Shown here one piece after another: positions 1 to 10,982 of a stretch of DNA of 10,982 nt (position 1 is the first letter of the stretch; each line of letters begins with the position of its first letter). Source of the DNA: Syntrophomonadaceae bacterium (lineage in GTDB: Bacteria; Bacillota_B; Syntrophomonadia; Syntrophomonadales; Syntrophomonadaceae); contig DAOUSQ010000019.1 in the NCBI GenBank assembly GCA_030627145.1, forward strand, positions 1-10,982. The letters run 5' to 3'. The notes beneath the pieces were generated by a model. The model ran no database searches, was not told the DNA's origin, and saw nothing but the letters and a program-made list of their open reading frames with translations. A program made the position numbers and the translations under genes.

Positions 1-921
1 AGGTAGTTGTAGGCATACGTCTATTATATTTTTATCCATTACTTTAATATCTAACTTTCCATTATTATTTTCGATAAGATTAGTAATTGATTTCATCTTC
101 ATAGAGCTGATAGAACCAATATCCGAGGTTGAGTTACTGTAACCCCTGATATTAAAAGCTAAATATGATGCGTTTTCAGGTGATTCAGTATGAACAATCA
201 TTTGCCCATTTTTCCCCACCAGGGAATAAAAAAAGTTCAGCAGCTTTATTATAATCATAGACATAGGCTTTTTTCTAATATTAATTAATAGGTTGTCAAA
301 CGTATCAAACACCAGGATCAAGCTGCAGGTTTCCGGTGTATAGCGAACCCATGATTCAATTTCGTTAGAAATATCTCGACAGGTACAAAAATGTGAAACA
401 CAAGTATCAGAAGTAAAGTTTTCAATTAAACTGTTAATTTTCTCTAATTCTTCTGATATCAGACAAATATATTCTTTTTTCATTTTTTCGTCTGCTTTAA
501 TAAGTTGGCAAAAACCTTTAGCAATAGTCAGGGGATTACGTATCTCAACCAGGATACCCACGGCCAGTTGCCCCATAATAGCTAATTTCTCAGCTTTTAA
601 AATAGTCTCTTCTAATTGAAAAGTCGTGGTTTCATCCTGCAGTATGACCATCACCTGATATGGTGATGAATTGATGATTTCTGTTCTGGCTCTCCATGTA
701 CGTGATTTCTTGGGATAACATATTTTCATAACTTTTTCCAGGGACTCCTGCTGTTTTAATGTTAGCGATACAAGTCTTTTTATTTCTTCTAATAAATAAT
801 CTTGACCTGACTCTGAATGTGGAAAACAATCCCTGCAATTATTAATATAGGTTATTTTTTTTTCTTCATCAAATACTATTATTCCCAGAGGAATCTTATC
901 TAAGATAGGGTTTGTTAGCAT
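1..921 (-). CDS. PAS/histidine-kinase-like protein with degenerate catalytic motifs (pseudo-kinase), 3' end outside window
   Basis: An open frame of 307 codons runs from an ATG at 921 off the left edge with no stop. AAGGAG lies 6-7 bases before the ATG, and the previous gene ends 19 bases upstream. Residues about 1-100 look like a small PAS domain (IPLGIIVFDEEKKITYIN, later YQVMVILQDET). Residues 108-165 match the HisKA dimerisation helix (MGQLAVGILVEIRNPLT). Where sensor kinases have GIAHEIRNP this protein has GILVEIRNP, so the phosphoacceptor His is Val125 (codon GTT at 549-547). The following ATPase-like domain keeps the overall layout, ending near LDIKVMDKNIIDVCLQLP, but it lacks the N-box Asn-Ala, the DxGxG motif (NIRGY at 257-261 instead) and the GxGLGL motif. 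No membrane segment is seen. I infer a cytoplasmic, phosphotransfer-dead scaffold or sensor. The frame is intact, so decay as an ordinary pseudogene is unlikely. Confidence 0.8.
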   Translation of the reverse strand, partial: MLTNPILDKIPLGIIVFDEEKKITYINNCRDCFPHSESGQDYLLEEIKRLVSLTLKQQESLEKVMKICYPKKSRTWRARTEIINSSPYQVMVILQDETTTFQLEETILKAEKLAIMGQLAVGILVEIRNPLTIAKGFCQLIKADEKMKKEYICLISEELEKINSLIENFTSDTCVSHFCTCRDISNEIESWVRYTPETCSLILVFDTFDNLLINIRKKPMSMIIIKLLNFFYSLVGKNGQMIVHTESPENASYLAFNIRGYSNSTSDIGSISSMKMKSITNLIENNNGKLDIKVMDKNIIDVCLQLP

Positions 922-940
922 GTTATTCTCCTTTAAAAAG

Positions 941-1201
941 CTAACTAACATATTCCGCCAGTGTTGAATAAGACACTTTCAACCGATAAATAGCGCAATT
1001 AGCTCTTCCGTTCTTCTCCAGGATTTCAAGTCGCACTAATTCTTCCATGATTTCCTTAACTAGTTCGGCATCTAAAAACAGTCGATTAGAAAAGCCCTCT
1101 AATGTGTCCCGGGTATGTGGATTTGCTTGAAAAAATGACAGTATTTCAATTTTCGCCATAGCAAATTGAATATTCTGGTTATCTTTAGTTCCTAGCCTCA
1201 T
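941..1201 (-). CDS. small winged-helix-like protein, 86 aa
   Basis: This 86-residue protein has a helical pattern over residues 14-74 (AKIEILSFFQANPHTRDTLE, then LDAELVKEIMEELVRLEIL, then a short basic beta-like stretch ending NCAIYRL). The pattern resembles winged helix-turn-helix domains of the ArsR/MarR type, in which the LVKEIMEELVRLEIL segment would be the recognition helix. There is no effector or second domain, so it may be a small DNA-binding or protein-interaction partner. The ATG at 1201 follows GAAGGAG, but with a long 12-base spacing. It begins 38 bases after the V4R gene ends and stops 19 bases before the pseudo-kinase start, so it almost certainly shares their transcript. The fold call rests on pattern reading only; DNA binding is inference. 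Confidence 0.65.
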   Translation of the reverse strand: MRLGTKDNQNIQFAMAKIEILSFFQANPHTRDTLEGFSNRLFLDAELVKEIMEELVRLEILEKNGRANCAIYRLKVSYSTLAEYVS

Positions 1202-1239
1202 TAGTTCTTATAACTCCTTCTTTTTTAAGCTTATGTTTC

Positions 1240-2172
1240 TTACAGTTTTTTTGGTAAAAGGATAAATTCACAATAATCAGCACCCAGGGCCTCACATTGC
1301 ACTTCTTCACAGACTATTTCTTCCCCCCAGGCCCTGGTAAAATATGCAGCCAATCTACCCCGGGCAGAATGACATGAAACTTTGGAAGACGTAAATAGTT
1401 TTTGCTCCACAAACAATTCAGCCATAAAAGACCCATATCCTCTTATTTTAGCTTTTTTATTAAACTCATCAAACTCAAGTATTTCATAGCGTATGTTTCC
1501 TGTTCTATTGGTCATATCTAAAAGATGTTCAATTGTTTCCCTTTCACTTGAAAAATACGGGCTAACTCTGTCATATTCTATTGAGCTTGAATAATAAATT
1601 GATTCATATAAGACCTGACCTAACAGGTGGTGTGCATAATCGTAAATAGTTTTTAACAATAAACCAAAAGATTTAACCAATAGAACTATAGCTCGTTCTC
1701 CAGCCATAGTAATCTTATCTCCGTCCTTTATTAGCATTTCGGTTATTGTCTCGCCAGGATAGATAGTGCCATAGCACCAATCATCACCAGCTATATCATC
1801 TATTTTTAGTTGGTACTGGCGGCCAGTAAAACGGGAAGCAATGTACCTGCAGCTAAGCATACGGGGACAGGAAAAAATCATATTTTCTTCTCTTGCCCTG
1901 GTGCAATATTCATAATAACTACAGTTTGGCTTATTAACCTTTATTTTTATCAAGTCTCCTTCTTCTGAAAAAATATAATCTTCTACATCGAGAAACCCCT
2001 GTTTCCCCATGAGTTCAATCCAGCCCCTGCAGAAATCAATAGCTTTATCAGAAGCAGGAATAAAATCATGTATGTACTGATTAAATAATCTTTCGGTTAA
2101 ATGTTCAGTAGCCATTTCAAAATGCTGTTTTCCTGCCATGGGAATACTATCTGCCAGCTGGCTGACACTCAA
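1240..2172 (-). CDS. V4R-domain sensor protein with cysteine-rich N-terminal region, 310 aa
   Basis: Residues about 245-308 match a V4R (4-vinyl reductase type) domain, with VSCHSARGRLAAYFTRAWG followed by EEVQCEALGADYCEFILLP. This reproduces the family's G-x-L-A pattern and its conserved C-x(4)-G-x(3)-C ending (C293, C301). V4R domains bind small hydrophobic ligands or metals in regulators such as XylR/DmpR and in many archaeal proteins. The N-terminal half is not a family I recognise. It holds C84-x5-C90, C102-x5-C108 and C133, followed by a helical stretch at about 158-195, which suggests a metal or Fe-S site. The listed start is a TTG at 2172 inside a T8 run and has no Shine-Dalgarno; Met12 (2139) and Met20 (2115) are alternatives. 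The gene lies 61 bases after the KaiC-like ATPase gene. It is probably a cytoplasmic ligand or redox sensor for this operon. Confidence 0.8.
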   Translation of the reverse strand: MSVSQLADSIPMAGKQHFEMATEHLTERLFNQYIHDFIPASDKAIDFCRGWIELMGKQGFLDVEDYIFSEEGDLIKIKVNKPNCSYYEYCTRAREENMIFSCPRMLSCRYIASRFTGRQYQLKIDDIAGDDWCYGTIYPGETITEMLIKDGDKITMAGERAIVLLVKSFGLLLKTIYDYAHHLLGQVLYESIYYSSSIEYDRVSPYFSSERETIEHLLDMTNRTGNIRYEILEFDEFNKKAKIRGYGSFMAELFVEQKLFTSSKVSCHSARGRLAAYFTRAWGEEIVCEEVQCEALGADYCEFILLPKKL

Positions 2173-2233
2173 AAAAAAGATTGTTTATCGTTTTATACAA
2201 AAAAGTAATCCTGTTATCCACTGCAATACCCCC

Positions 2234-3031
2234 TTACTCCCATATATTTTGCATAATAATAAGTCCTATTTGGGGATCAATAGTGTAATAGTACTGTGAA
2301 GAATCGAATTTGCCGCTTTTCATTTTCCCAAGGTGTATGGCTCTAATCGGTCTTTCCTGAAAGCCAGTATAAAACATCTTGACAATAACATCATAATCAT
2401 TAAATTTAAAAGCATGTTTACCAGATATGAAATCCTGTCCACGGGATTTTAGCACCTCTACATAGCGTCTTCTAAAACTGAAAGATTCTTCAAAATAGAG
2501 TCTTATTACGATATCCACAATGTATTCCTCAAAAGATGCCCGGTAATCATTGTAGTCATCAACCTCTTTAACCAGGATAGACGTTAATCCCATCCTCTTT
2601 AGTCCGCTGCAAACCCCATAAACTGATTTCCGGATCTCAACCGGAGCATTTAATCCCATGCTCAATTGAGTCACACTATCTGGTAATAACCTCTTTGCTC
2701 CTATTTCTTTTACGATAGCATCCAAAAAACCCTGATTTTTATTTAATATTACTTCCGGGGAAGTACATACCACCCTTAATAGGTTTTCTTCCTCTAATTT
2801 GCGCAAACCCCACCCATAATTTGATGCATCTCTATATAATTGCTCAGGAAACTCTTCAAATGTAATAACAATACCTGGTTCATTCATTTCAAATATACCC
2901 CAATAAATGAATTCAAGCCCAAAAATAGTTTTACCAGCTCCGGGAACGCCCTCGACTATGATAATGCTGTCCTTATTAAAACCACCAAATAATAAACTAT
3001 CAAAACCTTTAATTCCTGATTTTACCAACAT
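2234..3031 (-). CDS. single-domain KaiC-like RecA-superfamily ATPase, 265 aa
   Basis: The protein begins with the KaiC-family lead-in GIKGFDSLLFGGF and a Walker A loop GVPGAGKT (28-35). It then has the family's paired catalytic glutamates in VITFEEFPEQL (E59, E60) and the SxGWxLxxLEEE-like segment at 70-82. A Walker B-type Asp sits in LLPDSVTQL (D118), and the late motif VEVLKSRGQDFISGKHAF lies at 191-208. All nucleotide-binding residues I can place are present, so it should hydrolyse ATP. KaiC itself has two such domains; this protein has one plus a C-terminal tail of about 50 residues I do not recognise. Such single-domain ATPases are common in archaea and scattered in bacteria, often beside signalling genes. 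The ATG at 3031 has only a weak GAAGAAG upstream, and an in-frame TGA lies six codons before it. It is the first gene of the four-gene cluster. Confidence 0.85.
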   Translation of the reverse strand: MLVKSGIKGFDSLLFGGFNKDSIIIVEGVPGAGKTIFGLEFIYWGIFEMNEPGIVITFEEFPEQLYRDASNYGWGLRKLEEENLLRVVCTSPEVILNKNQGFLDAIVKEIGAKRLLPDSVTQLSMGLNAPVEIRKSVYGVCSGLKRMGLTSILVKEVDDYNDYRASFEEYIVDIVIRLYFEESFSFRRRYVEVLKSRGQDFISGKHAFKFNDYDVIVKMFYTGFQERPIRAIHLGKMKSGKFDSSQYYYTIDPQIGLIIMQNIWE

Positions 3032-3417: not shown

Positions 3418-3609
3418 TTAATTAAAATACTTTCTACGGGAAAATATTGACTCCAAATTCTCCATGGGAACATGCAGCAGATTATCCTGATTGACAAGTG
3501 CAAGAATGACCATTTCTTCTCCACTATATTCTTCGTTATAAAAACCCAGAACGCATAATGTCATCATCTCTCCATCAAGATAAACCGTAAAAATGTCCCC
3601 TTTATTCAA
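3418..3609 (-). CDS. 63-aa protein of unknown function, translationally coupled to the amidohydrolase
   Basis: I place the start at TTG 3609, not at the ATG at 3633. A TGGAGG sits exactly 7 bases before the TTG, and this start overlaps the amidohydrolase stop by only 8 bases (TTGAATAA), a classic coupled junction. The ATG would overlap by 32 bases with no good ribosome binding site. The product (MNKGDIFTVYLDGEMMTL...) is small, acidic in the middle and probably all-beta, with a few basic residues at the C-terminus (SRRKYFN). It faintly recalls small DUF1292-like beta proteins, but I cannot assign a family. No signal peptide or membrane segment is present. Its coupling suggests equal dosage with the amidohydrolase. 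Confidence 0.65.
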   Translation of the reverse strand: MNKGDIFTVYLDGEMMTLCVLGFYNEEYSGEEMVILALVNQDNLLHVPMENLESIFSRRKYFN

Positions 3610-4747
3610 GATTATCCCTCCATATTTTTCCATCTACCATAACCATGTTAACCCGGGAACGAAAATCAAAAGGGTGCCCATCAAAAATAGTTAAATCTGC
3701 TCGCATACCTTTTTTAATACTTCCCAATTCATTATCTACCCTCAGCAGCCGGGCAGGTATACTGGTAATAGCCTGCAAAGCCAGGTCCTCATCTAACCCT
3801 TCACGGACTGCCAGTGCTGCACAAACCCTTAAATGCTCAATAGGTACTACTGGATGGTCAGTAATAAAACTAAACTTCACTCCGCTCTTAGCAAGAAGGC
3901 ATGCACTCTTAAATGATACTTCCTTCATTTCCACTTTGGCTCTGTTTACCAGCAAGGGGCCAAGAAATACTGGTACATCTCTTTTTATTAATTCATCAGC
4001 TATTTTAAAAGCTTCGGTCCCGTGCTGAATAATAAGGTCAATACCAAATTCGTCCTTTATGCGCAGGGCGGTTAAAATATCATCTGCACGGTGTGCATGC
4101 AATAAGAGCGGTATTTCTTTTTTCAAGACCCTGATTAAAGGCTGTTGTTTATAATCATCTTTAGCCTTCACATCTTTTTTTTCCATAGTCCGGGCTGCAA
4201 TGTAAAACGCTTCTCTAAGCAGGCTGGCATTGGCCATTCGGGTCCTGGGTGCCTTCTTTTCCTGCGAGTAAACCCTTTTCGGATTTTCCCCCAACGCAGC
4301 TTTTAAACCCCAGGGGTTCTTGTATACCATATCTCCCATGCTCGGGGCTAAATGCTTTAAGAATACTGCCTGACCCCCAATAATATTGGCACTACCCGGC
4401 ATACTCATAGATCTGGTGACCCCACCCCGCAGGGCATCCTCAAAGGCAAGGTCAGCAAAGTTTATTCCATCAAGTGCCTGAAGCTGTGTAGTAACAGGAT
4501 CACTGGTTTCATTCACATCATCACCTTCAACCCGGTATATTTCTTCTTCCAGGCCAATATGGGTATGAGCATCAATAAATCCAGGACTTATATATTTACC
4601 AGCAGCATCAAGCAATTTACAATCTCCACGGATTTCAATATCTTTGCCTACAGCCTTGATAAAACTTCCTTCAACAATAATTACACCATTATCAATTACA
4701 CCTATCTCATCCATGGTTAATATTCTTCCGCCTTTAATTGCTATCAA
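3602..4747 (-). CDS. metal-dependent amidohydrolase, imidazolonepropionase-like (COG1228 type), 381 aa
   Basis: The layout is an N-terminal beta-sandwich (MIAIKGGRILTMDEIGVIDN) leading into the metal-binding HxH of FIDAHTHIG (H61, H63). Further likely ligands are H217/H219 in LLLHAHRAD, H242 in IIQHGTEA and D297 in FITDHPV. The chain closes with the typical return strand GSIKKGMRADLTIFDGHPFD (342-361). It should hydrolyse a C-N bond in a cyclic or linear amide in the cytoplasm; the substrate cannot be read from the sequence. It starts with TTG at 4747 behind GGGAGGAG, 8 bases away. It sits 127 bases after the gamma-glutamyl hydrolase-like gene, which hints at amide or gamma-glutamyl compound salvage, but this is inference. 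Its stop overlaps the next gene's start. Confidence 0.88.
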   Translation of the reverse strand: MIAIKGGRILTMDEIGVIDNGVIIVEGSFIKAVGKDIEIRGDCKLLDAAGKYISPGFIDAHTHIGLEEEIYRVEGDDVNETSDPVTTQLQALDGINFADLAFEDALRGGVTRSMSMPGSANIIGGQAVFLKHLAPSMGDMVYKNPWGLKAALGENPKRVYSQEKKAPRTRMANASLLREAFYIAARTMEKKDVKAKDDYKQQPLIRVLKKEIPLLLHAHRADDILTALRIKDEFGIDLIIQHGTEAFKIADELIKRDVPVFLGPLLVNRAKVEMKEVSFKSACLLAKSGVKFSFITDHPVVPIEHLRVCAALAVREGLDEDLALQAITSIPARLLRVDNELGSIKKGMRADLTIFDGHPFDFRSRVNMVMVDGKIWRDNLE

Positions 4748-4803
4748 ATTACTTGCTCCTCCCTTACTTAAATATCTTATGAATTTTTACCTGCTGCTGT
4801 TCA

Positions 4804-4897
4804 CCCGGCACTCAAACAATATTATCCTGCTTTACCGTTTTCCTTAAATTATAGCCCACGCTTTTAATATAAATTTATTGCTTCTTTGAGTGCCGGG
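4804..4897. repeat. perfect 13-bp inverted repeat around a TATAAT box
   Basis: CCCGGCACTCAAA at 4804-4816 is exactly reverse-complementary to TTTGAGTGCCGGG at 4885-4897, separated by 68 bases. The right arm lies in the last codons of the gamma-glutamyl hydrolase gene; the left arm lies in the gap before the amidohydrolase. A minus-strand TATAAT (4853-4848) sits between the arms. No T-run follows, so it is not a standard terminator. It could be a pair of operator half-sites or a long-range RNA hairpin. Confidence 0.7.
4848..4853 (-). promoter_or_regulatory. possible -10 box of an internal promoter for the amidohydrolase
   Basis: Perfect TATAAT on the minus strand, about 100 bases before the amidohydrolase TTG start. 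The region 16-18 bases upstream is AT-rich with no clear TTGACA, so the promoter is weak or activator-dependent if real. Confidence 0.3.
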
Positions 4898-5573
4898 CAA
4901 CCTCGACCAGCGCTTCAAATAAATAAAGTGAAAATTTATCCGGCAAACATTCAGGATGCCACTGTACACCCAGAAAAAAGGGGTGTTCTGTGCTCTCTAT
5001 CGCTTCTATCGTATCATCAGGTGCACAGGCACTTATGCGCATACCTGGACCGGTTTTTTTAACCGCCTGGTGATGGAAACTATTAACCCTTATACTCTTA
5101 TTTTTGACTATTCCCTCTAGAATAGTATCTTTCTTTATAACTATAGCATGAAAGGGATAACTGCGTGGCGCTTTCTGTTGATGGCTCATGCGACTGTGAA
5201 TATCTTGAATCAAACTGCCTCCTTTCGCCACGTTAAGTATTTGACAACCCCGGCATATTCCCAATGCAGGCAGATGGTGTTTAAATGCTTTTTGTGCCAG
5301 CATTAATTCAAAATAGTCTCTTAATGGATTGATATCACCCAGTGTTTTTTCAGGTAACTCTCCCCAGTAATGAGGGTCAATATCCCCACCACCTGAAAAT
5401 ATGAACCCATCGCAAATACCAGTATAATCATTTATTATGCCCTTCTCCTCAACAGGTGGCAATATTATTGCTGTTCCTCCAGCCTTATGAATAGATAGTA
5501 CATAATAGTCCCTTAAACAATACTCCTTTTCTGCTTCGTTAAAATTACCGGTTATTCCAATTACCGGTTTCAC
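4875..5573 (-). CDS. gamma-glutamyl-gamma-aminobutyrate hydrolase-like class-I glutamine amidotransferase (peptidase C26), 232 aa
   Basis: The triad elements are clear: nucleophile C107 in ALGICRGCQILNVAKGG, H206 and E208 in LGVQWHPE. The family signature FSGGGDIDPHYW is at 59-70, and NSFHHQAVK at 164-172 matches PuuD-type hydrolases. Length (232) is normal for the family. The expected reaction is hydrolysis of a gamma-glutamyl amide, such as gamma-Glu-GABA in putrescine breakdown, in the cytoplasm. No other putrescine genes are in view, so the substrate is open. The start is GTG at 5573; upstream sits a run of seven A then seven G, then TTAG, the G run serving as a Shine-Dalgarno. It precedes the amidohydrolase in the same direction. 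Confidence 0.87.
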   Translation of the reverse strand: MKPVIGITGNFNEAEKEYCLRDYYVLSIHKAGGTAIILPPVEEKGIINDYTGICDGFIFSGGGDIDPHYWGELPEKTLGDINPLRDYFELMLAQKAFKHHLPALGICRGCQILNVAKGGSLIQDIHSRMSHQQKAPRSYPFHAIVIKKDTILEGIVKNKSIRVNSFHHQAVKKTGPGMRISACAPDDTIEAIESTEHPFFLGVQWHPECLPDKFSLYLFEALVEVARHSKKQ

Positions 5574-5594
5574 CTAACCCCCCCTTTTTTTACT

Positions 5595-5658
5595 AGTGAA
5601 TAGTTATTAGAAAATAGAGAATAATTATTGTTAAAAAAAGCTTTGCTTTTTTCTATTA
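5595..5658. repeat. dispersed intergenic repeat, copy A, with a small hairpin
   Basis: This AGTGAATAG...ATAGAGAAT...TTATTGTT block ends in AAAAAAGC-TTT-GCTTTTTT (hairpin 5634-5652). By hand alignment it matches 8326-8381 at about 52 of 58 positions, including gaps. The hairpin has a T6 on either strand and could be a weak bidirectional terminator. It lies between mazF and the gamma-glutamyl hydrolase gene, just upstream of the latter's start. Confidence 0.7.
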
Positions 5659-5663
5659 AATAG

Positions 5664-5690
5664 AAAAACAGGATCCTTTATCAGAACCTG
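5664..5690 (-). terminator. probable intrinsic terminator downstream of mazF
   Basis: Stem CAGGtTC/GAtCCTG (5690-5684 with 5675-5669), one mismatch, 8-base loop, followed directly by TTTTT (5668-5664) on the minus strand. It is about 120 bases past the mazF stop and probably ends the mazEF transcript. Confidence 0.6.
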
Positions 5691-5749
5691 CTTTAATCTA
5701 TACTCGAATTAATTCTTAATTCTTGATCCGTAATTTGAAAGTAAAGTAA

Positions 5750-5772
5750 AGGATTGGGTAAAACCCAATCCT
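5750..5772 (-). terminator. perfect 10-bp hairpin after mazF
   Basis: Stem AGGATTGGGT/ACCCAATCCT with a 3-base loop, 37 bases past the mazF stop. On the minus strand it is followed by an interrupted T-rich stretch (TTACTTTAC), so termination may be partial. The strong stem could also protect the 3' end of mazF mRNA. Confidence 0.5.
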
Positions 5773-5808
5773 AACCTTAATTCATAATTCAAAATTAAAA
5801 TATATGTA

Positions 5809-6156
5809 TTATATTTCACTTAATCCCAGGCTCATAGTTAACGCTTTATCAACCTTGTTCATCAACTCCACATTTAATACAGCTATCCGCTGTTTTAACC
5901 TTGACTTATCAATAGTCCTTATCTGCTCGGCTAAAATTACTGAATCTCGTTCCAGTCCATAAACACTGGTTTTAAGTTCAACATGGGTTGGCAGTTTAGC
6001 TTTGTTAATTTGTGATGTTATGGCCAGAATAATAGTAGTTGGACTGTACTGGTTGCCAATATCATTCTGGACTACAAGAACTGGTCGAATACCACCTTGT
6101 TCAGAGCCAATAACCGGGTTTAATTGGGCAAAATAGATTTCACCGCGTTTAATCAT
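5809..6156 (-). CDS. ndoA: MazF/EndoA-type mRNA interferase toxin, 115 aa
   Basis: The protein closely follows the EndoA pattern of Bacillus: [20 protein letters not shown], then [15 protein letters not shown] with catalytic-site R24, then [17 protein letters not shown] with T47, then [17 protein letters not shown]. The family is a ribosome-independent endoribonuclease that cuts single-stranded mRNA at a short motif (UACAU for the Bacillus enzyme). It is held inactive by the partner antitoxin. Length is normal and no key residue is missing. It starts 9 bases after the mazE stop, with GGAGTGA overlapping that stop, so the two are co-translated. Its place after alr matches the usual alr-ndoAI-ndoA order in Firmicutes. 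Confidence 0.95.
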
Positions 6157-6165
6157 TAATACTAA

Positions 6166-6435
6166 TCACTCCAACAGTTTTTCTATACAATTGGCCAGAG
6201 CTTCTTCCTCCACTCCTATATTTTCGCTTACGATACTCAAATTTATTTCTGCCATTTCCAGGTAACCTTTTTTCATATGTTCTCTTATCAGATTTCTTTT
6301 ACGTTCTTTAAGATAAAACCTGAGCGCCTCTCTTACTATCTCACTGCGATTTTTACATTCAGTAACCATAATATCATCAACTTCAGCTAGAAGATTTTGG
6401 GAAACTGTTATAATAATCCTTTTTGAGGCTGACAA
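6166..6435 (-). CDS. ndoAI: MazE/EndoAI-type ribbon-helix-helix antitoxin, 89 aa
   Basis: An N-terminal ribbon-helix-helix (KRIIITVSQNLLAEVDDIM then NRSEIVREALRFYLKER) binds DNA and dimerises. The C-terminal part (MKKGYLEMAEINLSIVSE) matches the toxin-wrapping tail of Bacillus EndoAI (RRGYMEMAKINLNIASE). I choose the TTG at 6435 rather than the upstream TTG at 6450 because GGAGG lies 8 bases before it, inside the longer frame. It neutralises MazF and, by family habit, represses its own promoter. A candidate promoter and a perfect inverted repeat lie just upstream, 100 bases after alr ends. Confidence 0.93.
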   Translation of the reverse strand: MSASKRIIITVSQNLLAEVDDIMVTECKNRSEIVREALRFYLKERKRNLIREHMKKGYLEMAEINLSIVSENIGVEEEALANCIEKLLE

Positions 6436-6507
6436 TGCGAGCACCTCCAAAACAATAGATACCTACCAGATATATTTTATTATATTAAATAAGATTGTCT
6501 GCTCGCA
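6436..6507. repeat. perfect 8-bp inverted repeat bracketing mazE promoter and ribosome binding site
   Basis: TGCGAGCA (6436-6443) and TGCTCGCA (6500-6507) are exact inverted copies 56 bases apart. One overlaps the -35 box of the candidate mazE promoter; the other fills the whole spacer between GGAGG and the TTG start. It is a candidate MazE operator, or a hairpin that would hide the ribosome binding site. Confidence 0.6.
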
Positions 6508-6508
6508 A
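6479..6508 (-). promoter_or_regulatory. candidate sigma-A promoter of mazEF
   Basis: Minus-strand TTGCGA (6508-6503), 18-base spacer, TATAAT (6484-6479), about 44 bases before the mazE start. The -10 is perfect and the -35 matches TTGACA at 4 of 6. It allows mazEF to be expressed apart from alr. Confidence 0.55.
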
Positions 6509-6534
6509 ATCCAATAATTGTATTAAATAGGTGT

Positions 6535-7653
6535 TTACTTGTAGATTCTTGGTACCCGGGAGCCAATCGAGCATATTATTTCATAATTTATGGTACCTAT
6601 AGTTCTGGCAATATCATCAGCCGTCACCCCATCTTCAGGTCGCCCAAAAAGGATTACTTCATCTCCTACTCCAACCCCCTCAAGCTCACTGACATCAAAC
6701 ATACACTGATCCATACAAACAACACCAATCAACGGTACTTTATGGCCTTTAATAACTGCCCGGGCACGGTTGGATAACAACCTGCTGTATCCATCTGCAT
6801 ATCCTATCGGTACTGTAGCCACCCTTGTTTTTTTATTGCAGCAATAGGTTCTTCCATAGCTGATCGTAGCACCTTTATCCAGATTCTTGATAAAACTTAT
6901 CCTGCTTTTTAAAGTCATGGCAGGGGTTATGTTTAGTTTTCCTTTATTTACCTCGCCAGAAGGATATAAGCCATATATTACTATTCCGGCTCTAACCATA
7001 TTAAAATGCGATTCAGGAACATCCATTATGGCTGCACTGTTAGAACAATGCTTTAATGGTATAAAAATACCTCTTTTCTCCAAATTAGCAATAAAGCCTG
7101 CAAACAATTCCATTTGTTCATAGGTAAAGGTTTTGTCTTTGATATCTGCTGCCGCAAAATGAGTAAAAATTCCCTCTAAATTAATTCCTGGTAAGGTAGA
7201 AATTTCACTTACAATATCCAGGGAATTATCCCCCGGGGGAAAACCCAGCCTTCCCATACCTGTGTCAATCTTTATATGCAGACATGCCTTCCTGGAAAGT
7301 TTTACTGCCGCCTTTGAAAGTTCCCTGGCCAAGCCCATACTGAATATGGTTGCTGTAATGTTTTCCTTTACCATAGTCTCAGCATATTCATCTGGAACAT
7401 ATCCCAGTACAAGTATGGGGATACTTATTCCTGCCTCACGTATTAATAAAGCTTCATCCAGACTGGCAACTCCCAGGTATTCTATCCCTTCCTGTAAACA
7501 AACCCTGGTAACTTCAAGCATACCATGACTATAGGCGTTGGCTTTGACCACTGCCATTATCCTTGCTCCTGCAGCTGCTTCCTGCACACTGTGAATATTG
7601 TTTTTTATGGCTGTTAAATCTATTTCTGCCCAAGTTGGTCTTCTATTATCCAT
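6535..7653 (-). CDS. alr: alanine racemase (PLP-dependent), 372 aa
   Basis: It interconverts L- and D-alanine for peptidoglycan. The PLP-binding lysine is K37 in AVVKANAYSHG. The second catalytic base is Tyr266 in ISYGRTY, followed by VATVPIGYADGYSRLL. R221 in MVRAGIVIYGLYPSG contacts the cofactor ring, and the substrate-site segment is VVCMDQCMFDVSE. Length is typical (about 370-390). The ATG at 7653 overlaps the CBS-protein stop by 8 bases (ATGGATAA), with GGTGA about 7 bases upstream, so its translation is coupled to that gene. mazE follows with its own promoter. Confidence 0.97.
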   Translation of the reverse strand: MDNRRPTWAEIDLTAIKNNIHSVQEAAAGARIMAVVKANAYSHGMLEVTRVCLQEGIEYLGVASLDEALLIREAGISIPILVLGYVPDEYAETMVKENITATIFSMGLARELSKAAVKLSRKACLHIKIDTGMGRLGFPPGDNSLDIVSEISTLPGINLEGIFTHFAAADIKDKTFTYEQMELFAGFIANLEKRGIFIPLKHCSNSAAIMDVPESHFNMVRAGIVIYGLYPSGEVNKGKLNITPAMTLKSRISFIKNLDKGATISYGRTYCCNKKTRVATVPIGYADGYSRLLSNRARAVIKGHKVPLIGVVCMDQCMFDVSELEGVGVGDEVILFGRPEDGVTADDIARTIGTINYEIICSIGSRVPRIYK

Positions 7654-8101
7654 TACTTTTCACCAAAGATTTTAAAACATCATTTCGGGTAACAATACCC
7701 ACCAGTTTACCATTCCTGACAACTGGAACACGGTTAATATTTTTTCTTTGCATAATTTCTACAACCTCACTCACCGGCGTTTCTTCTTCAACAACCAATA
7801 CATCGTCAGTCATAGCATCTTTTACCAGGGAAGCAGTATATTTTCTCAAGTCGCTATTAAAACGTATGGGGTTTTCCAGAAAAATAATACTGTCAAATAA
7901 AGTAATATAAAATGGCACTTTTAACTCTCTGGCTTTAACCATCAAGTCTTTTTCAGTAATAATGCCTAAAATATGCCTATCATTATCAATTACTGGTATC
8001 CCACTGATTTTATTTTCCACCAGCAATCTGGCAACCTTTTCCACACTGTCATCCTGGTTTACTGCTATGACATCCTCTGTCATCACATCTCTCGCTAACA
8101 T
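7646..8101 (-). CDS. stand-alone two-CBS-domain protein, 151 aa
   Basis: Two CBS domains fill the chain. The first is about residues 1-58 (LARDVMTEDVIAVNQDDSVE through GIPVIDNDRHILGIITEKDL); the second is about 92-148 (VKDAMTDDVLVVEEETPVSE through RVPVVRNGKLVGIVTRNDVL). A linker between them carries LFDSIIFLENPIRF. CBS pairs (Bateman modules) usually bind adenine nucleotides and regulate a partner; no catalytic domain is attached here. The ATG at 8101 has GAGG 7-8 bases upstream. The overlap with alr implies matched expression, and it might modulate Alr or a neighbour, but that is inference. Confidence 0.92.
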   Translation of the reverse strand: MLARDVMTEDVIAVNQDDSVEKVARLLVENKISGIPVIDNDRHILGIITEKDLMVKARELKVPFYITLFDSIIFLENPIRFNSDLRKYTASLVKDAMTDDVLVVEEETPVSEVVEIMQRKNINRVPVVRNGKLVGIVTRNDVLKSLVKSNG

Positions 8102-8481
8102 CTTTCAACCTCTTTTCTCTGTAAATTTCTAATAATATGCATTTATTAGTATTATTTATTTATTCTGTATTAATACAATACTCTTTCCGCAATATAAAAT
8201 TACTAATGAGCACCCTTTACAGTCTACCGGGACTCAAACTTTATCACAGGACTTTCAAATGTGTTGTGAAAAACTTACTGCAAGTGGACAAAATCATTTA
8301 TTCTAAGTTCCTTAAGGGCTCCTTAAGTGAATAGTGATAGAGAATAGAGAATAGTTATTGTTAAAAAAGCTTCGCTTTTTTCCTATATTATAAACTCCTT
8401 TAAAAGGATTACCCCAGGTAGTTACGTTGGCACAGGAACTTCTAAACGTAACAATTGTATAATCTCCGTTTAATTTTTCTT
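8102..8481 (-). other. 380-base gap between nnr and the CBS gene
   Basis: I see no convincing gene. From the nnr side it holds an 8-bp inverted repeat GTTACGTT/AACGTAAC (8421-8428, 8445-8452), the palindrome TCCTTTTAAAGGA (about 8397-8409) and repeat copy B. Then comes a non-coding block of about 130 bases (8200-8330) with CCTTAAG twice. The AT-rich leader of the CBS gene contains the perfect palindrome TGTATTAATACA (8166-8177) and CTAATAA/TTATTAG arms (8129-8149). Promoter elements for the CBS-alr unit must lie here, but I find no clear -35/-10 pair. Confidence 0.5.
8326..8390. repeat. dispersed intergenic repeat, copy B, with a small hairpin
   Basis: Second copy of the repeat at 5595-5658, with AAAAAAGC-TTC-GCTTTTTT forming a hairpin at 8363-8381. 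The hairpin's T6 on the minus strand, about 100 bases past the nnr stop, could end the acpS-nnr transcript weakly. Confidence 0.7.
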
Positions 8482-10035
8482 TTATAGCTGCTCAAAATAC
8501 TGTAAAACATCCGGTAAACTGTTTATTAAATCACCTGCAACCAGTCCCCTTTGTCCTTTGCGTTGAGCCGCATAATCACCTGCCATACCATGTAAATAAA
8601 CACCTGCAACAGCAGCATCCTGGGGTTTTAAACCCTGGGAAATCAACCCGGTTATTATCCCGCACAATACATCACCACTTCCAGCAGTTGCCATCCCTGG
8701 ATTACCTGTTGTATTAACATATATATCACCCAATGGATTAGCTATTACCGTTTTATTTCCCTTGAGAACTAAAGTTACCCCCCACTGCTCTGCAAAATCC
8801 CTTGCTATTCCGATTCGATCAGACTGTATTTCCTCTATACTCTTTCCTGTAAGTCGTGCCATTTCACCAGGATGAGGAGTAAGTACCACAGGTATCTGCC
8901 GATCTTTTAATATGGCTGCATCCCCCTTCAGGGCATTTAGCCCATCAGCATCAATTACTACTGGAATACCTGATCTCTCCAGGACAAAACGTACTACTGC
9001 ATTTCCTTCTGATGCCCCTGACATTCCTGGTCCAATAGCACAAACCGAGACTGTCCCCAGCAAATTTTCGATAGCAGGTAAAGCCTCCAGCCCTATGGCT
9101 CCCTGATTGGTCTCTGCAAGGGGTGTGGTCATTACCTCAAACAAGCCACCCTCAACTACAGGAAGCAAAGACCCTGGAATTCCAGCAGTTACTAACCCTG
9201 CTCCACAGCGCAGTGCAGCATTGGAAGCCATAATTACTGCTCCGGTTAACCCTACTGAACCGCCAATTACTAAAGCATGTCCATAAGTACCCTTATGAGA
9301 CTCAGCAGGTCGCGTTCTTATTAGCGGTTTAATAAAATCTTCCGTAATTAAATTAGTCTTGAGCTTACTATCTGTTAACAGGAAAGAAGGGATAGTAATG
9401 TCTGCTACCTTCAATTTGCCCACGAAATTTCTTCCTGGTTCAATTATCAAACCTATTTTGGGCAGGGCAAATGTAACAGTATATGAAGCTTTTATTACTT
9501 CGCCGTGTACTCTACCAGTATCCGCATCTACTCCAGACGGTATATCTACAGCAACAACCGGTGACCTGCTGCGATTAACCATCTTAATAATTTTAGTTTC
9601 AAAATCATCAAAGCTGCCCTTAAACCCTATTCCATATAAAGCATCTACAATAAGATCACTATTAAGTAAAGACAAATTCAACCTGTCAAGGTCTTCCTCC
9701 CGATTAAGGGTAAAGATTTTTTTGCTCATTTTCCCCAGTATTTGATAATTAACAGAGGAGTTATCTGTCATATTCAAGGTATCTGCTGTTAAAAAAGTTT
9801 CCACACTGGCACCCCAATTCAACAGATGCCGTGCCGCAACCAGTCCATCCCCCCCATTATTCCCCTTACCTGCAAGTATGATAACTTTTTTATCCCGGGG
9901 TGTTTTAAGTATATCTTTGATAACCTCAACTGTTTTTATTCCAGCATTTTCCATAAGCAAAATACTGGGAATATCATACTCACTGGTAGCTCTACGATCA
10001 ATATCTTTCATTTCCTGGGCTTTAAGTATTTTCAT
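8482..10035 (-). CDS. nnr: bifunctional NAD(P)H-hydrate epimerase / ADP-dependent NAD(P)H-hydrate dehydratase, 517 aa
   Basis: It repairs damaged NAD(P)H hydrates. The N-terminal NnrE/YjeF_N part (1-220) epimerises the R form to the S form, with AGKGNNGGDGLVAARHL at 55-71, DALYGIG at 131-137 and VVAVDIPSGVDADTG at 160-174. The C-terminal NnrD ribokinase-like part (230-517) dehydrates S-NAD(P)HX using ADP. It shows HKGTYGHALVIGGSVGLTG at 247-265, AIGPGMSG at 333-340, VIDADGLNAL at 360-369, LTPHPGEMARL at 385-395, and the catalytic GNPGMATAGSGD ending in D455. Length is normal for the fused form. The ATG at 10035 lies 4 bases after the acpS stop, with AAAGGGTGA as ribosome binding site overlapping it, so the two are co-translated. 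Confidence 0.96.
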   Translation of the reverse strand: MKILKAQEMKDIDRRATSEYDIPSILLMENAGIKTVEVIKDILKTPRDKKVIILAGKGNNGGDGLVAARHLLNWGASVETFLTADTLNMTDNSSVNYQILGKMSKKIFTLNREEDLDRLNLSLLNSDLIVDALYGIGFKGSFDDFETKIIKMVNRSRSPVVAVDIPSGVDADTGRVHGEVIKASYTVTFALPKIGLIIEPGRNFVGKLKVADITIPSFLLTDSKLKTNLITEDFIKPLIRTRPAESHKGTYGHALVIGGSVGLTGAVIMASNAALRCGAGLVTAGIPGSLLPVVEGGLFEVMTTPLAETNQGAIGLEALPAIENLLGTVSVCAIGPGMSGASEGNAVVRFVLERSGIPVVIDADGLNALKGDAAILKDRQIPVVLTPHPGEMARLTGKSIEEIQSDRIGIARDFAEQWGVTLVLKGNKTVIANPLGDIYVNTTGNPGMATAGSGDVLCGIITGLISQGLKPQDAAVAGVYLHGMAGDYAAQRKGQRGLVAGDLINSLPDVLQYFEQL

Positions 10036-10039
10036 TTGA

Positions 10040-10408
10040 TCACCCTTTCGAAGCGATAACTGCTGCTATCGCCTGATTTTTAGCATGAGAGAGACTCAAT
10101 GATATTTCATTTAATCCCCGCTCCTGGCTTCTCGCCAGAGCCACCCCGTACAGGACTATATAAGGTCTCCCATCATCCTTTATTTGTACTTCAATTTCAT
10201 GAAAACGAACCCCCGAAATAAAAACAGGGTCCAATTTGCGTACTGCCTCTTTCGCTGCAAAACGAACTGCCAGAGATGGATAAGGATTTTTTTGGCCAAG
10301 ACAATATTCCAATTCCTGTTTTGTAAATACCCTGTGTAAGAACCGGGGAGTTCTTTCTACTGTTTTCCTGACTCTTCCAATATCAATTATATCAATACCT
10401 ATAAGCAA
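10040..10408 (-). CDS. acpS: holo-[acyl-carrier-protein] synthase, 122 aa
   Basis: It transfers 4'-phosphopantetheine from CoA to acyl carrier protein. The Mg-binding Asp is D6 in IGIDIIDIGRV; the second metal ligand is E54 in VRFAAKEAVRK, the family's best signature. The C-terminal ISLSLSHAKNQAIAAVI (residues about 102-118) matches the CoA-binding SHxxxxAxA motif. The loop usually reading ALGTG after KEA is KLDPV here, a local change in an otherwise complete protein. It starts with TTG at 10408, with GGGGAG 6 bases upstream. It leads the operon and is followed directly by nnr. Confidence 0.95.
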   Translation of the reverse strand: MLIGIDIIDIGRVRKTVERTPRFLHRVFTKQELEYCLGQKNPYPSLAVRFAAKEAVRKLDPVFISGVRFHEIEVQIKDDGRPYIVLYGVALARSQERGLNEISLSLSHAKNQAIAAVIASKG

Positions 10409-10465
10409 TATGTACTCCCCTTTTTAATAGCCATAAATTATTTTCATCTGTTTATGATAATTTTT

Positions 10466-10493
10466 ATTATACTTCTTTAATATTTTGTTGCAA
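10466..10493 (-). promoter_or_regulatory. acpS: sigma-A promoter of acpS-nnr
   Basis: Minus-strand TTGCAA (10493-10488), 16-base spacer, perfect TATAAT (10471-10466). The start of transcription would be near 10459, about 50 bases before the acpS TTG. It is the best promoter in the window. Confidence 0.75.
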
Positions 10494-10550
10494 AATATAG
10501 AGTAAAATTTTTGTGCTGGTAGAAGACTCTAAGATTTTTTCCGCAAATAT

Positions 10551-10582
10551 TAAAAACCCTGAAACTGGTGAAAATTTCAGGG
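10551..10582 (-). terminator. intrinsic terminator of the receiver-domain gene
   Basis: Stem CCCTGAAA/TTTCAGGG (10582-10575 with 10564-10557), 10-base loop, followed by TTTTTA on the minus strand. It is about 150 bases past the receiver-domain stop and separates that gene from acpS. Confidence 0.85.
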
Positions 10583-10690
10583 CTGTGTCTGCTTGTTTAG
10601 TTTCATTTGGATTACGCTTGCATCTCTGCATTTTTCCTTCAATTAAAACACTGGTCGAAGGTATGAATTGCCAGCATAAAAAACAAATCA

Positions 10691-10729
10691 GCTTCAAGGC
10701 AGTTGAAGCAAATAAGAAATGTAACTGCC
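10691..10729 (-). other. two mutually exclusive hairpins after the receiver gene
   Basis: GGCAGTT/AACTGCC (10729-10723 with 10704-10698) and GCTTCAA/TTGAAGC (10709-10703 with 10697-10691) share bases, so only one can form. The second is followed by TGATTTG and then TTTTTT (10683-10678). They begin 6 bases past the stop codon. The arrangement resembles an attenuator or 3' end-processing element, but the distance to the T-run is long. Confidence 0.35.
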
Positions 10730-10734
10730 AAAAA

Positions 10735-10982
10735 TTAAACTAACTTAATTCCTTCGGTTACATTATCCATACCAGAACACTGACTCAATACATGATATAG
10801 CTGTTCCCGGGTAAATGGCTTACTTAAATAGTAATCACATCCTACCTGCATGCACTTCTCAATATCACCTGTCATAGCATAAGCGGTTAAGGCTACAACA
10901 GGGATTCTCTTCCATTGTCGGGACTGCCGAATAATATTTGTGGTTTCATAACCATTCAGTACCGGCATTTGCATATCCATAA
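10735..10982 (-). CDS. receiver (REC) domain, C-terminal part of a response regulator or hybrid kinase; 5' end outside window
   Basis: The visible residues are the second half of a CheY-like receiver. The phospho-acceptor Asp is in MDMQMPVLNGYE, the switch Thr in PVVALTAYAM, and the conserved Lys in YYLSKPFTREQL. The chain ends about 20 residues after the receiver, with no output domain. The ALTAYAMTGDxxxC(M)xxGCDxYLxKPF wording is typical of receivers at the C-terminus of hybrid histidine kinases, though a single-domain regulator is possible. The frame is open to the right edge, so the true start is not in view. A terminator follows at 10551-10582. Confidence 0.9.
   Translation of the reverse strand, partial: MDMQMPVLNGYETTNIIRQSRQWKRIPVVALTAYAMTGDIEKCMQVGCDYYLSKPFTREQLYHVLSQCSGMDNVTEGIKLV

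Follow-up and report, generated by a model that had tools for sequence, protein, structure and literature searches.

The 10,982-nt contig DAOUSQ010000019.1 of a Syntrophomonadaceae bacterium (GenBank assembly GCA_030627145.1), referred to below in its full length as the window, carries at its left end four minus-strand open reading frames (ORFs; 2234-3031, 1240-2172, 941-1201, and 951/921-1) for a KaiC-type ATPase, a V4R-domain protein, a small winged-helix-like protein, and a kinase-like protein. The locus is judged, with slightly better than even probability, to be a locally altered version, probably in decay, of a conserved signalling operon that has five genes in anaerobic Bacillota and would act by the mechanism proposed below. 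The gene order, the families, the catalytic motifs, and the absence of kinase motifs in the window's lineage are the parts of this assignment that were read from sequence. The initial annotation of four same-strand genes separated by 61, 38, and 19 bases was confirmed, provided that the kinase-like gene starts at position 921; the Met encoded there matches the start of the relative P0134. The features of the locus are as follows.

2397-3031, minus strand: front of the KaiC ORF, corresponding to the first domain of a double-domain KaiC-A (Pfam and comparison with relatives); Walker A GVPGAGKT retained, changes T36I and L117P.
2234-2406, minus strand: rear of the KaiC ORF, C-terminus of a single-domain KaiC-B (comparison with relatives); junction near 2397-2406.
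2219-2221, minus strand: probable natural GTG start of the V4R gene, in a frame different from that of the remaining ORF (comparison with full-length relatives).
2171-2178, no strand assigned: homopolymer (T on the coding strand) at the junction of both V4R frames; either a break of the frame, a site of slippage or an error of assembly.
1240-2172, minus strand: V4R protein, N-terminal TRAPP/V4R-like domain with Cys 84, 90, 102, and 133 (Pfam, alignment, fold search).
1240-2172, minus strand: V4R protein, C-terminal V4R domain with Cys 267, 288, 293, and 301 and Glu 290 (Pfam, alignment).
941-1201, minus strand: small winged-helix-like protein with the motif FFQxNPHTRDTxxG (conservation).
1-921, minus strand: PAS-DHp pseudo-histidine kinase with a degenerate ATPase region, truncated by the contig edge (Pfam, alignment).
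547-549, minus strand: codon GTT (Val) at the phospho-acceptor position; xEIRNPLT motif otherwise retained (alignment).

In relatives, the usual gene order is KaiC-A (double-domain, ~461-464 residues), KaiC-B (single-domain, ~240 residues), V4R protein, winged-helix protein, and PAS kinase. With the V4R protein as the starting query, three loci were found in named genomes, and the reading was then extended to further genomes from the order and the phylum. A search of 398 genomes of the phylum with a KaiC-B profile gave 15 matches at E<=1e-20, including 12 strong ones (E below 1e-100; loci L003, L059, L060, L061, L063 to L067, and L086 to L088). The initial annotation had made its four-gene set depend on the families being found together elsewhere, and such adjacency was observed: the KaiC-A, KaiC-B, V4R, and winged-helix genes lie in this order on one strand in all 12 strong genomes, KaiC-A being truncated by the contig end in L059 and L088 and split into two ORFs in L063 and L065. 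A kinase-type gene is next in 11 of the 12, of which the L003 copy is a 200-residue remnant; L065 is the sole case among the strong genomes where a kinase gene was not found. Two of the three weak KaiC-B genomes (G138 and G173) have the complete set of five in another order (kinase, winged-helix, KaiC-A, KaiC-B, V4R), and the third (G152) has no other module part within the 10.5 kb examined. Within the window's own order, the V4R profile was matched in 6 of 63 genomes, four of which have the full-type protein (one with N gaps and one truncated by the contig end) and two the N-domain alone. Those relatives of the V4R protein that bear organism names belong to Syntrophomonadaceae, Syntrophomonas, and one Clostridiales bacterium. 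Association beyond chance was judged by recurrence and not by a statistical test. The parts of the proposed four-gene set are real and co-occur, but a fifth gene had been overlooked, the usual set including two KaiC genes.

The module lies directly upstream of argS in 9 of the 12 strong genomes. At all four loci L023-L026 (genomes G062, G063, G002, and G003), the V4R N-domain is encoded by a gene of its own (153-177 residues, 4-Cys motif retained) directly upstream of argS, which looks like a relic of an ancestral site. Identification of argS and pyrG relied on a motif taken from translations and not on a family search. In L002 (7491-8141) and L003 (11955-12605), the module is followed by similar proteins of 216 residues that resemble GPR1/FUN34/YaaH permeases by eye. 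Genome G001 holds, besides L001, a second KaiC-A/KaiC-B pair in L027 (contig C279, 4.2 kb), which is a duplicate or a strain mixture. The re-ordered modules (L069 of G138 and L089 of G173) have a larger kinase, which in L089 includes receiver and Hpt domains.

The KaiC ORF of the window matched PF06745 (KaiC) with E 1.9e-49 and had been taken for an intact single-domain KaiC. This assignment was not upheld, as ~210 of its 265 residues represent domain 1 of KaiC-A and the last ~55 the end of KaiC-B (residues 1-214 and 204-264 in the respective comparisons). Both parts are present in one protein in none of the 98 relatives of the window KaiC, and the rear part is matched by only eight of these, all KaiC-B proteins of 238-240 residues that share 21-25% likeness with the front part. 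The relatives have two KaiC domains, whereas the window ORF has one domain and a KaiC-B end, and ~1.3 kb covering KaiC-A domain 2 and most of KaiC-B is estimated to be missing. Among the matches to the window KaiC, P0082 is a KaiC-A relative from Chloroflexi.

In intact proteins, the Walker A Lys, the Walker B Asp, and the residue that we take to be the catalytic Glu are 95-100% kept at all three ATPase sites (54 KaiC-A rows for both domains and 24 KaiC-B rows), and the intact module KaiC proteins should, from these motifs, be active ATPases at all three. In the window protein, T36I adjoins the Walker A Thr and L117P adjoins the Walker B Asp, both at columns that are invariant in 28 relatives. 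These are its two deviations at 74 invariant columns, as compared with 0 of 59 in P0065, 8 of 131 in P0036, 0 of 123 in P0037, and 2 of 125 in P0052. P0065 and P0134 are both listed with a 12,459-base contig, presumably the same one, and appear to derive from a sister strain. The KaiC-A protein P0065 itself stops early after FEEY (residue 170), as if frame-shifted. The window differs from P0065 at 6 of 170 KaiC residues and from P0134 at 1 of 307 kinase residues (Fisher P 0.009).

The V4R protein of the window matched PF02830 over the curated cut-off (42.1 bits against 31, E 9.5e-11), in agreement with its first assignment; the corresponding proteins of L086 and L067 are under the cut-off (27.6 and 28.2 bits). 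The fold search gave a clear MopR/DmpR-like match, the best sequence match to a solved structure being weak (E 0.047), and revealed a second domain of similar TRAPP/V4R-like fold. C282, C308, and C316 are invariant in 39 V4R proteins and have the same spacing as Cys151, 177, and 185 of DmpR, which are described as zinc-binding in the accessible part of PMC7264223. E305, also invariant in the 39 proteins, aligns with a Glu three residues before DmpR Cys177, but the zinc-binding Glu of DmpR is given as Glu172 in PMC7264223. Every invariant Cys is retained in the window protein, which deviates at 5 of 50 invariant columns (compare 5 of 49 in P0002, 3 of 53 in P0003, and 0 of 50 in P0020). Hence, by fold and alignment, the protein is predicted to carry a MopR/DmpR-type domain with a putative zinc site. 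The re-ordered variant has a V4R protein in which this domain is fused with PF13379, which is an NMT1-like family (E 1.8e-32 and 2.8e-28). The sensory role first suggested for the V4R protein gains support from its fold, the spacing of the zinc-site Cys residues, and the PF13379 fusion. No match to the protein was found in a phage collection at E 1e-5.

Sequence upstream of the annotated TTG start encodes, in another frame, the conserved N-terminus of the V4R protein, and the two frames join at the homopolymer at 2171-2178. Comparison with relatives indicates that the natural start is probably the GTG at 2221-2219, and the gap between the KaiC and V4R genes would therefore be 12 bases. The frame break may be due to slippage, decay or error.

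Decay of the window copy is proposed because the KaiC fusion and the V4R frame break are accompanied by two KaiC changes sited at Walker A and Walker B. Given the fifth gene of the usual set and the fusion product, the window's own set may therefore not be a working module. The four genes could instead be a genuine minimal variant in which one shortened KaiC is enough and the set works as the initial annotation proposed. The fused ORF is open over all 265 codons and retains Walker A, the winged-helix gene and the visible part of the kinase gene are also open, and two KaiC deviations are no more than intact relatives can show (0 to 8). This explanation is nevertheless regarded as improbable given the uniqueness of the fusion, the position of both deviations, which have no counterpart in the 59 columns covered by the sister protein P0065, the excess of differences in KaiC over those in the kinase, the early stop of P0065 itself, and the broken V4R start.

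Alternatively, the fusion and the frame break may be assembly or sequencing errors, and the organism would then possess a normal five-gene operon. The locus is known from a single metagenome contig, its close relatives have two normal KaiC genes, and homopolymers are typical places for indel errors. However, the T36I and L117P changes in what is left of KaiC-A are consistent with genuine decay, and the corresponding DNA ends in the relative L022 showed by eye no long identical stretch, no repeat search having been made. Errors are thus considered a rather doubtful explanation, though a better one than a minimal variant.

The kinase-like protein matched HisKA (PF00512) with 30.2 bits against a cut-off of 26.9 (E 4.8e-07), and Val occupies its phospho-acceptor position, as expected for the protein lacking His that had been described. 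No HATPase Pfam match was obtained, and the N, G1, and G2 boxes are absent in the alignment (row P0134). With His replaced and the ATPase boxes gone, the protein does not have the features of a functional histidine kinase. Comparison with P0134 suggests that it is short of only six residues at the contig edge, and it deviates at 0 of 28 invariant columns (3 of 31 in P0137 and 1 of 29 in P0136). With the kinases of the window, L001, L002, and L003 as queries, a homolog search gave 37 proteins, scored among the best 7,996 candidates. In 34 of them V, L, M, I or T stands in place of His and the ATPase boxes are missing; the remaining three have both. Fewer than 290 residues are present in seven of these 34 proteins, five of the seven being on contigs over 10 kb and the other two (P0162 and P0163) on contigs of 1,157 and 1,043 bases, where they may be cut.

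All 12 module kinases outside the order of L003 contain the His, N, G1, and G2 motifs. Two of them are near-copies (L059 and L061, which differ at 6 of the last 300 residues and are identical over the trimmed columns), and that of L063 is P0168. A quick tree, computed from 49 rows after deletion of the His column, needs one change, with a support of 100; P0169 and P0170, which have His and are counted among the three intact homologs, were left out as being long multi-PAS kinases. The pseudo-kinase is considered to be the derived form because all 12 module kinases outside the window's order are intact and the tree needs one loss. The sequence around the lost His, E-x-R-N-P-L-T, is invariant in the 27 longer His-less proteins. 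Their mean pair identity reaches 0.69 for DHp, against 0.47 for PAS and 0.35 for what remains of the ATPase region, the respective values for nine intact kinases being 0.57, 0.34, and 0.47 (ATPase). The simplest reading of these data would be that the motifs were lost once, in an ancestor, and that the DHp surface has since been under selection. Signalling without His phosphorylation, as initially suggested, thus fits the window's lineage, where the motifs are lost, but not the other module genomes, which keep an intact kinase.

The winged-helix protein gave nothing above cut-off in the Pfam scan of the window, and its position and sequence are conserved among relatives. It is possible, though not probable, that the module is a transcription regulator, in which the V4R protein and KaiC control a DNA-binding winged-helix protein and the kinase is a dispensable accessory input. 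The winged-helix gene is present in all 12 strong genomes, the kinase gene is missing in L065 and devoid of motifs in the window's lineage, and the L086 winged-helix protein weakly matches archaeal winged-helix families (HVO_A0114, E 1.9e-4, and DUF2250, E 3.6e-4, both under the cut-off). However, DNA binding is presumed, and the DHp helix is the best-conserved part of the pseudo-kinase, a conservation not expected of a dispensable input.

For the decayed five-gene operon, the following mechanism is proposed. The V4R protein would bind a small molecule or sense redox via its zinc/Cys sites, and its state may alter the ATPase cycle or the assembly of the KaiC proteins. By analogy with KaiC on SasA in cyanobacteria, but without KaiB, the KaiC assembly could dock on the PAS-DHp protein. 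In most lineages docking would determine how active the kinase is on a response regulator encoded elsewhere. The kinase of the Syntrophomonadaceae-type lineage may have become a non-catalytic DHp scaffold, with output by protein contact or via the winged-helix protein, which would serve as an adaptor or DNA-binding output; by analogy with DivL and DivK~P, the scaffold perhaps holds a response regulator. In the window strain, the module has probably lost its function or been reduced to a simpler form through the KaiC fusion and the broken V4R frame. A bolder form of this scheme, considered less likely than not, is that across the phylum a V4R sensor gates a KaiC assembly of three P-loop domains that signals via the DHp helix, and that in the Syntrophomonadaceae-type lineage the assembly took the place of His phosphorylation entirely. 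The kinase would there have lost its His and ATP site in a single ancestral branch and persist only as a docking scaffold recognised by KaiC, in a phosphorylation-free pathway that arose from a two-component system.

Several observations weigh against the proposed operon, its mechanism or its decay. The interactions between V4R protein, KaiC, and kinase, the ligand, and the phosphorylation are predictions from the genes, and gene order gives no direction of signalling. A response-regulator gene was not recognised in the canonical loci, where no family search was aimed at response regulators. The actual output could come from the winged-helix protein, with the kinase on a side branch. Decay is judged from one metagenome contig without reads, and the homopolymer break could be a sequencing error; the V4R protein of the window is otherwise normal-looking. 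The deviation counts by themselves are no proof of decay, as the window is not above all controls. Only three of the 34 His-less proteins are named, all from Syntrophomonadaceae, the family placement of the remainder being presumptive, and the quick tree carries long-branch warnings.

The rest of the window (3418-10982) encodes, by eye, an amidohydrolase, a peptidase C26, a MazEF-like pair, an alanine racemase, a CBS protein, an NAD(P)HX epimerase, and AcpS, i.e. ordinary housekeeping functions, and a receiver-domain fragment (PF00072 match) is found at the right edge. A link to defence systems was considered and rejected, as PADLOC gave weak matches only (mad8 with E 2.8e-7 at best, PDC-S41, and AbiEi).

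The module would represent a compact example from bacteria of a histidine kinase linked with KaiC-type ATPases and a ligand sensor, KaiB being apparently absent. The natural series of intact kinase, dead kinase, and PAS-DHp-only kinase shows which part of the kinase its partners seem to need, and the idea is testable because several genomes have an intact operon, among them one that consists of a single 2.94 Mb contig. A literature search aimed at the gene set found no description of it, most subscription papers being outside the coverage, and a term look-up in the accessible part of a broad KaiC survey (PMC5520375) gave no mention of V4R or Firmicutes. As far as this search and its coverage reach, the statement that the set is not a described system holds; the single parts and KaiC hubs are already known.

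Two KaiC domains in KaiC-A, best PDB sequence matches to KaiC, and a linked histidine kinase are features that would also suit a KaiBC-type clock or timer. However, in 15 of the 17 module genomes of relatives searched, KaiB was unmatched at E<=1e-3; the partial match in G325 is over the cut-off (29.5 bits, cut-off 27) and that in G255 is under it, and weak matches were obtained in 6 of 14 control genomes. Moreover, the kinase input is a PAS domain, whereas that of SasA is KaiB-like. A clock is thus very improbable.

The module resembles the cyanobacterial output pathway, in which KaiC recruits SasA (accessible part of PMC13421787), in tying a double-domain KaiC ATPase to a histidine kinase. 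It differs in the scarcity of KaiB matches, the PAS input of the kinase, an extra single-domain KaiC, a V4R sensor, and a kinase that is dead in one lineage. Archaeal KaiC-like ATPases are signalling hubs alongside two-component parts (Makarova 2017, as cited in the accessible part of PMC5847659); in contrast, the module is a bacterial operon of separate proteins in a fixed order. Unlike the aromatic-sensing V4R domains of MopR, DmpR, and PoxR, that of the module is not fused to an AAA+ sigma-54 activator, the ATPase being separate and KaiC-type, and the protein adds a second TRAPP/V4R-like domain with its own 4-Cys motif. DivL of Caulobacter, a histidine kinase repurposed as a non-kinase (accessible part of PMC4211667), and other pseudo-histidine kinases share such repurposing with the window's lineage. 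DivL acts with DivK, whereas the module pseudo-kinase has no recognisable ATP motifs left or lacks the ATPase domain altogether, and its neighbours are genes for KaiC and V4R proteins. The nearest precedents for the proposed mechanism are the recruitment of SasA by KaiC and the repurposed kinase DivL.

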